Source: Neotamlana sargassicola (GTDB lineage: Bacteria; Bacteroidota; Bacteroidia; Flavobacteriales; Flavobacteriaceae). Taken from it: a stretch of 64,000 nucleotides of DNA. A program made the position numbers and the translations under genes. The notes beneath the pieces are model-generated. The model had not been told where the DNA came from. It saw only the letters and a list, made by a program, of their open reading frames with translations, and did not search any database. The stretch lies in the NCBI RefSeq assembly GCF_020523965.1, contig NZ_JAJAPX010000001.1, positions 930,001-994,000 of the forward strand, written 5' to 3'. Of the stretch, positions 12,206 through 19,546 are shown piece by piece (the first letter of the stretch is position 1; each line of letters opens with the position of its first letter).

Positions 12206-12301
12206 AGGGCATTCCCCTAAAGGGTCGGGCTTTTCGTTACTAGTTTTGGCTCGATGCGCGCCTCGCCAAAAGCTATCCACTGCAATCCCTAATGCGGCAG
12301 G
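12206..12301. repeat. Dispersed intergenic repeat element, copy 1
   Basis: About 95 bp, much more GC-rich than its surroundings. It shares a skeleton with 34067-34162: GGGCRTTCC near the left end, CGGGCTTT and a CG(T/C)TACT block, a variable hairpin, then CAATCCCTAAYGC. The internal hairpin here is TTTTGGC (12244-12250) facing GCCAAAA (12264-12270). It ends a few bases from the SCO gene stop. Similar elements are common between genes in Flavobacteriaceae. Confidence 0.7.
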
Positions 12302-12305
12302 CTAA

Positions 12306-12980
12306 CTACTGTTTGTATTCTTCCTTTAAAATATCGATATCGTTAAGTAAACGCTCAATTTCATCTTTATTCGTGCCATCGTAAAACCCACGAATTTGTC
12401 GTTTTTTATCAATAAGCATAAAGTTTTCGGTGTGTATCATATCAAAAGGGCCACCATCTCCAAAGTCTTTTACCGCTAAATAACTTTTTCTAGCAAGCTC
12501 ATAAATTTGTTTTTTATCGCCAGTAACTAAATTCCATTTACTATCAATAACACCTTTTTCTTTAGCATAACGCTTAAGCTGAGCAACAGTGTCAATTTCT
12601 GGAGTTACGCTGTGCGATAGTAGCATAACTTCATCGTCATCTTTAATTTCTTTTTGTATATCGGCCATGTTTTTTGTCATAATAGGGCAAATGGTTTGGC
12701 AAGTGGTAAAAAAGAAATCGGCTACATAAATTTTATCTTTATAATCATCTTGTGTAATGGTTTTACCATTTTGGTTTACAAGACTAAAATTGGCTATTTT
12801 ATGATATTTACGTTGGTGTTGTATGGTGCTATCTACCAATTGTTCATCAACCATAGCAGGTTGGTAAATGTTTAGCGGTTGGTAAACATTAAGTGTGTTA
12901 TAAATTAAAACTAGAATAATAACCGAAATAATGGCAAAAACTATGGCAAACTTCTTGTAAACTTTAAAAAACGACAACAT
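12306..12980 (-). CDS. SCO1/SenC-family copper chaperone or thiol reductase
   Basis: A 224-residue membrane-anchored protein with one N-terminal helix (about 11-28) and a thioredoxin-like SCO domain. The copper-binding motif TTCQTICP gives Cys94 and Cys98, and the distal His in DMIHTENFMLID (about residue 182) completes the site. SCO proteins deliver copper to the CuA centre of cytochrome c oxidase or reduce its cysteines. No oxidase genes are in the window. It has its own promoter at 12998-13005 and appears to be a single-gene unit. Confidence 0.9.
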   Translation of the reverse strand: MLSFFKVYKKFAIVFAIISVIILVLIYNTLNVYQPLNIYQPAMVDEQLVDSTIQHQRKYHKIANFSLVNQNGKTITQDDYKDKIYVADFFFTTCQTICPIMTKNMADIQKEIKDDDEVMLLSHSVTPEIDTVAQLKRYAKEKGVIDSKWNLVTGDKKQIYELARKSYLAVKDFGDGGPFDMIHTENFMLIDKKRQIRGFYDGTNKDEIERLLNDIDILKEEYKQ

Positions 12981-17067: not shown

Positions 17068-17724
17068 ATGTCGCAGGAAGAAATTATTAATAAAACCAAA
17101 GCTTTTGTAAAAGATACACTGTTAAATGCCGAAGGTGGTCATGATTGGTTTCATGTTTTAAGAGTTTATAATAACGCATTACTTATTGCAAAAAATGAAA
17201 CAGTTGATGGTTTTGTTGTTGCTCTAGGAGCGTTATTACACGATATTGCCGATAGTAAGTTTTATGATGGCGACGAATCTGTTGGTCCTAAAATGGCTCG
17301 TGAATTTTTATTTAATTTAAATGTAGATTCTTTAGTTATCGAGCATGTTGTAAATATTATTAAACATATATCATTTAAAAATTCACTTTCTGGAGAAACA
17401 ACATTTACATCGAAGGAATTAAAGGTTGTTCAAGATGCTGATAGGTTAGATGCTATTGGAGCGATTGGAATTGCTAGATGTTTTAATTATGGCGGATTTA
17501 AAAACAGGCCAATGTTCGATCCAAGCATTGCACCAAATTTAAATATGACGAAGGCGGAATATAAAAACTCTACCGCGCCAACAATAAATCATTTTTACGA
17601 AAAATTATTGCTATTAAAAGATAAAATGAATACGGCAACGGGTAAAAAAATAGCAAGCAAGCGTCATAACTACATGCTTGAATTTTTAGATCAATTTTAC
17701 AACGAATGGGACGGTAAATGTTAA
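17068..17724 (+). CDS. HD-domain phosphohydrolase
   Basis: A 218-residue metal-dependent hydrolase of the YedJ/YpgQ type. Metal ligands: HDWFH (25-29) ahead of LLHDIADSKF (His/Asp at about 57-58), and a late Asp in QDADRLDAIGAIGIAR. Members act as nucleotide or phosphate hydrolases; the substrate cannot be told from sequence. It starts 5 bp after the desaturase. Its stop codon overlaps the stop of the convergent AraC-type regulator gene. Confidence 0.85.
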   Translation: MSQEEIINKTKAFVKDTLLNAEGGHDWFHVLRVYNNALLIAKNETVDGFVVALGALLHDIADSKFYDGDESVGPKMAREFLFNLNVDSLVIEHVVNIIKHISFKNSLSGETTFTSKELKVVQDADRLDAIGAIGIARCFNYGGFKNRPMFDPSIAPNLNMTKAEYKNSTAPTINHFYEKLLLLKDKMNTATGKKIASKRHNYMLEFLDQFYNEWDGKC

Positions 17725-18608
17725 ACGGCCTCCGATTGTTGTATTATTAACTTAATTTCTTTTCGGTAGTTTGATGCCGTTTTTCCTGTAATTTCGGTAA
17801 ACTGTTTATTAAAATGCGAAAAGTTGTTAAATCCACATTCGTAACAAATATCTGCAATGCTCATTTGGCTTTCGTTAAGCAGTTTGGTGGCATGAACTAC
17901 ACGATACTCGTTAACTAATTGAGTAAATGTTTTTCCGGTTGCTTTTTTAAAGTATCTACAAAATGCAGGAACAGTCATGCTTACTTTATCTGCTATTTCA
18001 TCTAAAGAGATATGGTTCTGGAAATTTTGATTTACATATTTAAAAACAACATCAATTTTCGAGCTATCTTGGGCTTCGGCCTCAAAAGCAAATCCATCTG
18101 CGTTTAATAATTCATAGTCGTCTGTAGTGGCCAAGTATTCTAAAATCTCTAAAAATTTAATCACTTTTTTTAATCCTTCATAATTATTCAGTGCTTCAAT
18201 TTTCGGACCTAACTCTTGTTTGGTTTCTACTTTAAAACGAATACCTTTTTTTGCTCTATCGAATAAACCTGCTAAATTGGCGCTTTCAGGAACTTGCAAA
18301 AAGCCTTCACCTAGAAAGTCCGCTTTAAACTGTATGGTGGTTTCAGTTCCTGTTGCGGTTAATCTATCTGTAAATCCATTATGAGGTAAATTAGACCCCA
18401 TTAAAATTAATTGACTATTATTAAAGTAAGATAAATGGTTTCCTATGTGGGTTTTACCTTGGCCTTTATTTACATATATAAGTTCTAACTCTGGGTGAAA
18501 ATGCCAATATGCAGTATTCTTATCAACAGTATCTACATGTTGTTTAACTAATATCGAACTACCAAAACTAGGCGTAAGTTTTCTAAATGTAGGTTTTTTG
18601 TTAATCAT
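17721..18608 (-). CDS. AraC-family transcriptional regulator
   Basis: A 295-residue regulator. The N-terminal cupin sensor region (about 20-150) includes HFHPELELIYVNKGQG and a second barrel half. The C-terminal AraC domain (about 195-290) has both helix-turn-helix units, DEIADKVSMTVPAFCRYFKKATGKTF and SIADICYECGFNNFSHFNKQFTEITGKTAS. The frame is open 13 codons further upstream; the ATG at 18608 (MINKKPTF) fits the family better. It diverges from two tandem small-RNA units whose promoters share a box containing TAGC, a typical AraC half-site core. Control of those units is a hypothesis; the inducer is unknown. Confidence 0.9.
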   Translation of the reverse strand: MINKKPTFRKLTPSFGSSILVKQHVDTVDKNTAYWHFHPELELIYVNKGQGKTHIGNHLSYFNNSQLILMGSNLPHNGFTDRLTATGTETTIQFKADFLGEGFLQVPESANLAGLFDRAKKGIRFKVETKQELGPKIEALNNYEGLKKVIKFLEILEYLATTDDYELLNADGFAFEAEAQDSSKIDVVFKYVNQNFQNHISLDEIADKVSMTVPAFCRYFKKATGKTFTQLVNEYRVVHATKLLNESQMSIADICYECGFNNFSHFNKQFTEITGKTASNYRKEIKLIIQQSEAV

Positions 18609-18644
18609 AATAATTAGTATTTTAAGGACAGTGCTATTATTATA

Positions 18645-18652
18645 CAAAATTA
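18645..18652 (-). promoter_or_regulatory. -7 box of the AraC-family gene
   Basis: Minus-strand TAATTTTG, fitting TAnnTTTG, 36 bp upstream of the ATG at 18608. Confidence 0.5.
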
Positions 18653-18738
18653 GTATTTATTATGCGCACATTGTATATAAATTTCCCAAAATTGTGTGTT
18701 ATTTTAACATTATCAGCATTTAACATTTTATTAATGGT

Positions 18739-18754
18739 TAATATAGCATATAAA
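18739..18754 (+). promoter_or_regulatory. Conserved upstream box, unit 1
   Basis: TAATATAGCATATAAA. The same 16 bp lie at 19129-19144. In both places the box starts exactly 55 bp before the -7 element and ends 13 bp before a -33 TTG. This puts its centre near -60, a usual activator position. Confidence 0.75.
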
Positions 18755-18767
18755 TTAGATAAAATAT

Positions 18768-18801
18768 TTGTTTCGGTCGTTGAAATACATAACTATCTTT
18801 G
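18768..18801 (+). promoter_or_regulatory. Promoter of small-RNA unit 1
   Basis: TTG at 18768-18770, a 23-bp spacer and TATCTTTG at 18794-18801 (TAnnTTTG). Spacing is identical in unit 2. Confidence 0.7.
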
Positions 18802-18807
18802 AGGTGT

Positions 18808-19007
18808 ATATTATTTGAAATAACCTCTTAAGATTAACTAAATAAAAATACCTTAATAAAAACAGTTTTATTGCTTTATTAAGGTACTTTTAGGTAATCG
18901 TAGACAATATAAACTCTAAAAATAGAGTAAAAATATTCATTAATAATTAGTTTAATGTCTTATTTAGTTTAGTTGGTAAAAGTGAGCTGTGGTGGCTCAC
19001 TTTTTTT
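18808..19007 (+). ncRNA. Candidate small RNA, unit 1
   Basis: About 200 nt from the predicted start to the terminator. In order: a weak 5' stem (GAGGT at 18801-18805 with ACCTC at 18823-18827), a 12-bp hairpin TACCTTAATAAA / TTTATTAAGGTA (18849-18860, 18875-18886), a small CTCT/AGAG hairpin (18914-18927), then a module almost identical to unit 2 ending in the terminator AGTGAGC-TGTGGTG-GCTCACT (18981-19001) and a T-run. The only conserved reading frame is a five-codon ATG TCT TAT TTA GTT TAG, too short to argue for a protein. A further loose copy of GTCTTATTTAGTTTAGTT follows at 19011-19028. Start site and boundaries are inferred. Confidence 0.7.
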
Positions 19008-19128
19008 ATTGTCTTATTTAGTTTAGTTAATATTTTGTGAAAATAATACAAAAAATGAATTACACAAAACATTTTCTACTTTTTTAACTATAAACTATGC
19101 TATTTTACCCCAAGTATTTAAAAATTGA

Positions 19129-19144
19129 TAATATAGCATATAAA
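19129..19144 (+). promoter_or_regulatory. Conserved upstream box, unit 2
   Basis: TAATATAGCATATAAA, identical to 18739-18754, same distance to promoter elements. A partial inverted copy (CTATGCTATTTT, 19095-19106) lies just upstream of this one. Confidence 0.75.
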
Positions 19145-19157
19145 CCAATCAATTCTA

Positions 19158-19191
19158 TTGATTTTTATGAGTCCCTTTTAGTGTACTTTTG
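19158..19191 (+). promoter_or_regulatory. Promoter of small-RNA unit 2
   Basis: TTG at 19158-19160, a 23-bp spacer and TACTTTTG at 19184-19191 (TAnnTTTG). Confidence 0.7.
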
Positions 19192-19197
19192 TATTGT

Positions 19198-19391
19198 TAA
19201 ACATTATTAAAAGATTTCGATTTAATTTAATGTTTTCAGATTTAAAAAAATTGGTGGTAGATTTTTTTAAATCTATTAAATAAAAATCGATAAAAATATA
19301 CTCTACAGAGTAAAAACATTCATTAATAATTAGTTTAATGTCTTATTTAGTTTAGTTGGTAAAGTGAGCTGTGGTGGCTCACTTTTTTTTT
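19198..19391 (+). ncRNA. Candidate small RNA, unit 2
   Basis: About 194 nt, same plan as unit 1 with a different 5' half. A 5' stem AAACATT/AATGTTT may form (about 19199-19205 with 19229-19235). A perfect 14-bp hairpin AGATTTAAAAAAAT / ATTTTTTTAAATCT (19238-19251, 19261-19274) sits at nearly the same offset from the promoter as the unit 1 hairpin though its sequence is unrelated. Then CTCT-AC-AGAG (19301-19310), the shared module, and the terminator AGTGAGC-TGTGGTG-GCTCACT (19363-19383) with a long T-run. From AGAG to the end the two units differ by one substitution and one indel by eye. Confidence 0.72.
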
Positions 19392-19444
19392 GTTATAAAA
19401 ATTAACTTTTTTAATGGAGTCAAGTCATTTTTATTAAAAATCGG

Positions 19445-19546
19445 GCATAAAAAAACTGATTAATAAGTAATAAAATATTAACAATTAAAAAAATTGAGTG
19501 AATTTTAAAACCTATTAATCAGTTTCTAATTTGTTTATTTTTATGC
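19445..19546. repeat. Large inverted repeat between unit 2 and the bacilliredoxin gene
   Basis: Outer arms GCATAAAAA (19445-19453) and TTTTTATGC (19538-19546); inner arms AAACTGATTAATA (19453-19465) and TATTAATCAGTTT (19513-19525), a perfect 13-bp match about 47 bp apart. No T-run of terminator type follows immediately. It could be a structured 3' region of the bacilliredoxin mRNA, another RNA, or a small inverted-repeat element. Confidence 0.6.

Follow-up and report, generated by a model that had tools for sequence, protein, structure and literature searches.

Related small RNAs and novelty of the family

Multi-copy paralogous small RNAs are known in Bacteroidota from FopS and GibS of Bacteroides thetaiotaomicron, with one FopS being derived from a 3′UTR, and FopS has been proposed to pair with SusC mRNAs beside the start codon (PMC11697453). 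FopS RNAs are 65–70 nt long, carry a 5′-end seed, are driven by plain sigma-ABfr promoters, and are scattered over the genome (PMC11697453). Binding by the RRM protein RbpB is a further characteristic of FopS. The 3′UTR-derived small RNAs CpxQ, SdhX, and FarS share an mRNA 3′ end, including its terminator, and are processed from intact mRNA (PMC9438474). The sibling small RNAs OmrA/OmrB, Qrr, and LhrC occur in tandem or in multiple copies and share a promoter type and part of their sequence (PMC11697453). Closer to the organism analyzed here, Rfp18 of Flavobacterium psychrophilum is a structured small RNA that is widely conserved in Flavobacterium and tied to secreted or surface functions (PMC9723704), and Flavo-1 (RF01705) is also an RNA of Flavobacteriaceae.

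We analyzed 2 neighboring units in a 64,000-nt stretch of the Neotamlana sargassicola genome (the window), for which we computed conservation, promoter and box geometry, mRNA 3′-end origin, selection on the shared 3′ module, and the enrichment of its complement in SusC leaders. The units resemble FopS in that they come from Bacteroidota, are paralogous and multi-copy, and are apparently 3′UTR-derived; SusC start regions are a tentative candidate for their pairing sites. In contrast to the 65–70 nt and 5′ seed of FopS, however, they have a predicted length of ~200 nt and an invariant part at the 3′ end, and they are tandem, AraC-linked, and different in sequence. They share the mRNA 3′ end and terminator in the manner of CpxQ, SdhX, and FarS, but in many species no coding part is left, and they carry their own copy of the parental promoter. 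No sequence relation to OmrA/OmrB, Qrr, or LhrC was found, and the regulator of the units would belong to the AraC family. Rfp18, compared by description only, is likewise a conserved, structured RNA of Flavobacteriaceae with ties to secreted or surface functions.

The earlier note had pointed to Rfam, and to Flavo-1 in particular, as the place where a known family might be recognized. Rfam 15 gave no match at the gathering score in positions 18650–19500, and the best matches at E ≤ 5 were noise far below the cut-off; Flavo-1 does not match the units at either threshold. The sole Flavo-1 match (49.1 bits) lies at window positions 12219–12307 (−) and is unrelated to the units. Our verdict is a hitherto undescribed family of predicted small RNAs that are linked to AraC and apparently derived from an mRNA 3′ end.

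Architecture of the two units

The 2 units lie on the forward strand and follow one plan, much as the earlier note had described it. The identical 16-bp box TAATATAGCATATAAA was read at 18739–18754 in unit 1 and at 19129–19144 in unit 2, in both cases starting exactly 55 bp before a TAnnTTTG −7 element (TATCTTTG at 18794..18801 and TACTTTTG at 19184..19191, respectively), a spacing that is fixed in relatives. A TTG with a 23-bp spacer is present in both (at 18768 and 19158). The limit of 16 bp was too narrow: the conserved promoter block reads GtTAAtaTAGCAtAtAAA...AAaat.gaTGTTTT...TAnnTTTG, and the unit 1 box is the core of a probable operator of ~40 bp that is likewise conserved. Promoter and terminator positions delimit a predicted small RNA of ~200 nt at 18806..19007 for unit 1, and the corresponding RNA of unit 2, of ~195 nt, spans 19196..19390, both with inferred 5′ ends. 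The folds of both units beat all 200 shuffles (unit 1, z −3.66; unit 2, z −3.94).

Each unit contains a long perfect hairpin, at ~18849–18886 in unit 1, where the stem shows compensatory changes in 4 species and the loop is free, and at ~19238–19274 in unit 2, where the folds place a conserved loop, UUGGUGGUAGA. An ACTCT/AGAGT mini-hairpin follows at 18913–18928 (unit 1) and at 19300–19312 (unit 2, from fold and alignment). The invariant 3′ module with its terminator occupies 18936..19009 in unit 1, as delimited by alignments and a match to the covariance model R1, and 19319..19391 in unit 2, where the terminator reads GTGAGC-TGTGGTG-GCTCAC; the near-identity noted for the 3′ ends amounts to 97.6% over 84 nt. 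A partial second copy of TGTCTTATTTAGTTTAGTT lies downstream of the unit 1 terminator at 19005..19028 (+). The stem-loop GCTGTGGTGGC occurs 3 times in the genome and is confined to this RNA family. A long-range 5′–3′ stem of unit 2, joining GUUAAACAUUAUUAA to the module, was discarded, having appeared in single folds only and not being kept outside the genus.

The statement that no protein frame explains the pair needs qualifying, because a 17-codon open reading frame, MFSDLKKLVVDFFKSIK, runs across the unit 2 hairpin at 19230–19283 (+). If it were translated, unit 2 would encode a short amphipathic peptide, and the frame is present in 5 of the 9 unit-2-type copies. In the other 4 sister copies the start codon is missing, for which reason we judged that the frame is not a gene; it is also shifted in g3c/g3d, sequence changes follow the hairpin stem, and neither unit 1 nor other genera have such a frame, all of which makes a peptide very improbable. 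As predicted from sequence, the units have the attributes of stand-alone small RNA genes, namely their own promoter, an intrinsic terminator, and no conserved reading frame.

Box-promoter and AraC-family regulator

Upstream of the units, a gene on the reverse strand (17721..18611) encodes an AraC-family regulator, a probable activator of the units, with Pfam domain HTH_18 (3.5e-22) and an N-terminus that weakly matches AraC_binding/Cupin; in relatives, this gene is divergent from the units. It has a weaker box of its own, TAAAATAACACACAAT, at 18691..18706 (−), with the same geometry, and an element TAATTTTG at 18652–18645 (−), 54 bp from the start of that box. The search for box + N39 + TAnnTTTG with at most 1 mismatch returned 5 sites in the 3.6-Mb genome, against 0 for the reversed control, and all 5 precede the units or genes for secreted proteins.

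Across 87 araC loci of relatives, box and TAnnTTTG were spaced by 55 bp 129 times and by 54 bp 23 times, and the reversed box occurred 6 times at these spacings. The 54-bp type precedes araC itself (found in 24 relatives) and the 55-bp type precedes the target units, with the divergent boxes lying 33 bp apart in 26 of 27 pairs. Since the box precedes both the divergent araC gene and the target genes, it is most likely the operator of the neighboring AraC-family regulator. Synteny and geometry suggest that the AraC protein itself would bind the box, and we consider control of the units by this regulator to be likely, with good confidence.

Copy number and genomic distribution

Described at first as a tandem pair, the 2 units are both real, but they are not the only ones in the genome, as a third copy was identified at C10:911593-911862 (−). 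The R1 model of the 3′ module matched exactly 3 copies, the 2 window units and C10:911593-911666 (−), compared with 2 to 6 copies in congeners. Module matches, some of them weak, were obtained in 53 of 330 good-quality genomes of the family and in 39 of 237 genera, usually with 1 to 4 copies per genome lying close together. The longest array (G003 C8, L029 504-2711) holds 6 tandem units ~400 bp apart, 1 of unit-1 type followed by 5 of unit-2 type, and 2 pairs are nearly identical, indicating recent amplification. In the N. sargassicola genome (C10:911593-949391), copies 1 and 2 are separated from copy 3 by 37 kb and have the opposite orientation, unlike the congeners, in which a single array adjoins the secreted-protein genes; the arrangement resembles an inversion, one of whose ends falls within the RNA array.

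Tandem copies, together with an apparent inversion one of whose ends falls between copies 2 and 3, are what mobile elements or recombination sites acting at the DNA level, with no RNA function, could leave behind. Such elements offer a most improbable account of the repeats, as the copies stay at the araC locus, their promoter keeps a fixed spacing, and the stem of their terminator covaries; neither flanking duplications nor a transposase were seen.

Units of related build were also observed. At L054, L057, L058, and L060, a short unit of TTAATTAGTTTAGTTTGTTAG + hairpin + T-run lies ~550–590 nt after the stop codon of box-controlled genes; it resembles a degenerate module, and the host genomes have no full module. 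Winogradskyella-type loci (L081 7907(−), L099 9888(−), and L100 9892(−)) have box-controlled units without a reading frame, whose tail, TTGTTTATATATTAGTTTATTTAGTT + terminator, is different but similarly built; these are possibly a parallel RNA family.

Conservation and selection on the 3′ module

Across 13 units from 4 congeneric species, the module shows practically no variation, whereas fourfold-degenerate sites of araC are only 42–44% identical between these congeners, which argues that the RNA itself is under selection, as judged from sequence comparison. In other genera, the module is almost letter-identical in coding and noncoding contexts alike, and the ~35 nt that precede the terminator vary no more than the terminator itself does. 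Among 22 sequences of the terminator, 1 stem pair was changed on both sides in 6 and another in 1, and the UGUGGUG loop was fixed apart from its closing base. The mini-hairpin is part of the codons in coding copies, where the unit 1 version sits in N-S-x-x-K-E-Y, and persists with a variable loop in many noncoding ones.

The claim of a divergent 5′ half with conserved structure stood within the genus, where the stems keep compensatory changes, but not outside it, where the 5′ half is wholly different; the family is therefore defined by its 3′ module. The order of box, promoter, variable 5′ part, 3′ module, and terminator is conserved in many relatives, and compensatory base changes are present in the terminator and in 5′ stems; the earlier note had named such changes as support for an RNA and the lack of a conserved order as a refutation. 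This conserved order, the compensatory changes, and the lack of an Rfam match make sibling noncoding RNAs the best reading of the 2 units, as predicted from sequence, and we regard it as highly probable that they specify a functional noncoding RNA.

A terminator loop that is invariant while its stem covaries could also reflect a protein sponge, in which an RNA-binding protein would be captured by the UGUGGUG loop and, in unit 2, by the UUGGUGGUAGA loop, with the degree of titration set by the number of copies. The GGUGG motif in 2 hairpin loops of the unit-2 type and the arrays of up to 6 copies (G003) fit this idea. We consider it unlikely, given that the second GGUGG loop is restricted to 1 genus and that the exposed stretch UUUAGUUUAGUU is equally fixed, which binding through the loop does not explain.

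Probable origin from the 3′ end of a secreted-protein mRNA

Most boxes at the araC loci of relatives precede genes for proteins of 185–205 aa with a signal peptide, which weakly match DUF3244 and the T9SS sorting domain. The predicted model of the secreted protein has 2 beta domains (mean pLDDT 86.8) that appear Ig/FnIII-like from weak PDB matches to the model; a search of solved structures with the protein returned nothing useful. In coding copies from the Algibacter/Tamlana group, the module consists of the last codons (FINN-stop), the 3′UTR, and the terminator of the first divergent unit, and sequence shared with an mRNA 3′ end including the terminator was found at L034, L038, L040–L043, and others. 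At least 17 genomes have a first divergent unit with box, promoter, and module and without a reading frame; these noncoding first units include those in the window, 3 congeners, Aestuariibaculum, Mariniflexile, Confluentibacter, Hyunsoonleella, Jejuia, Seonamhaeicola, and Algibacter species. T. fucoidanivorans (L045) has a broken frame, MKNVITNTKK with an early stop, as a still readable remnant. The RNA family is most likely derived from the 3′ end of a secreted-protein mRNA, the coding part having decayed while promoter, 3′UTR, and terminator were kept.

Since coding genes naturally end in the module, it could instead be a cis-acting mRNA end, combining terminator and stability element, and the noncoding units could be pseudogenes that keep it through recency or gene conversion. 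L045 is a clear pseudogene, and tandem copies may convert each other. However, the genus of the window and L039, L051, and L059 have no module-bearing coding gene at the fetched locus, yet their module is invariant at saturated divergence. On the araC tree, the noncoding state requires ~5 changes, at least 2 of them forced by well-supported branches, and is common to a 9-row group of 4 genera (support 88). The equally fixed ~35 nt upstream of the terminator also argue against a cis-acting end. The 3′UTRs of sister paralogues that share the promoter are unrelated, so the constancy of the module is not the general behavior of 3′ ends here. We regard the cis-acting end as an improbable, though not negligible, account.

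Candidate targets

Several searches for pairing partners were negative. Pairing of the module with 5′UTRs of its own regulon was no better than that of a shuffled module, and ranks were scattered for conserved pairing of the module with araC or neighboring genes. A genome scan with the 18-nt complement showed no excess near starts, with 6 of 26 non-self sites compared with 5 of 30 for the reversed pattern. One match of the start-site scan was positioned directly ahead of a SusC-like gene's start codon, and the SusC-leader analysis arose from that single match, so that the hypothesis is post hoc.

We compared SusC leaders from the N. sargassicola genome and 3 other module-bearing genomes with those from 3 module-lacking genomes, a sample that is not phylogenetically independent. 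AACTAAA, which is complementary to the invariant, exposed module stretch UUUAGUUUAGUU, was present in the 40 nt preceding the start in 33 of 69 module-bearing and 12 of 70 module-lacking leaders (p 1e-4, uncorrected for relatedness). For held-out SusC genes alone, the counts were 8 of 18 and 8 of 40 (borderline, p 0.056), and the shuffle-corrected duplex score also differed between the leader sets (p 0.003). Most anagrams of ACTAAA show no excess; the overlapping anagram AAACTA is also enriched, and a mild enrichment over background is seen in the SusC leaders of module-lacking genomes too. Two SusC leaders of G087 hold CAACTAAACTAAAT, which is perfectly complementary to the module over 14 nt. 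Taken from sequence, pairing of the module with SusC leaders is a real possibility that falls short of being probable. A FopS-like role is the leading, still hypothetical mechanism by analogy, because FopS RNAs of Bacteroides are proposed to work by SusC pairing (PMC11697453).

Two other leaders were noted. The leader of a permease gene, which sits behind a sugar-kinase-like gene, holds AACTAAACTAAACATTAATG, another strong complement of the module (L162 1501-1518; own C10:156422). A stretch of 201 nt that spans the start of a transaldolase-like gene (L185–L187; own C21:65466-65666 and congeners) is 100% identical in 3 congeners despite the 42–44% identity of araC fourfold sites, raising the possibility of recent gene exchange. 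The transaldolase leader was rejected as a target, since the identity extends over the coding sequence and is thus uninformative on pairing.

Proposed model and significance

We lean, with modest confidence, toward an AraC-controlled, multi-copy family of noncoding RNAs that is derived from an mRNA 3′ end and acts in trans by base pairing. The AraC-family regulator would control the units, its own gene, and genes for secreted 2-domain Ig-like proteins of ~200 aa. The family would have arisen from the first secreted-protein gene, which lost its coding sequence while promoter, 3′UTR, and terminator stayed. Its functional part would be the invariant ~73-nt 3′ module, comprising a small hairpin, the exposed UCUUAUUUAGUUUAGUUGG, and the terminator hairpin with the UGUGGUG loop. 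We infer that the active regulator would bind the box and the RNA would then be transcribed, most likely to act in trans; the best target lead is the AACTAAA-type sequences that closely precede the start codons of genes for SusC-like TonB-dependent transporters, and pairing there would block translation and so repress SusC. A bolder reading, which we hold as tentative and rather doubtful, is that of an RNA that in several lineages has outlived its own protein, with an invariant tail amplified to as many as 6 copies, and that now works as a small RNA dedicated to tuning glycan transporters of the SusC type, a counterpart of FopS in Flavobacteriaceae of independent origin.

Flavobacteriia are major degraders of marine polymers, and few of their small RNAs have been characterized. 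For this family, a candidate regulator and a box are available, along with a regulon of secreted proteins and a target class that can be tested, which together make direct experiments possible. It would represent a new combination of 2 known themes, paralogous and 3′UTR-derived small RNAs, with the protein-coding part gone and the RNA tail retained, and the series of intermediates, from the intact gene with module through the pseudogene and the pure noncoding unit to the array, may trace the steps by which an mRNA 3′ end turns into a regulatory RNA in its own right.
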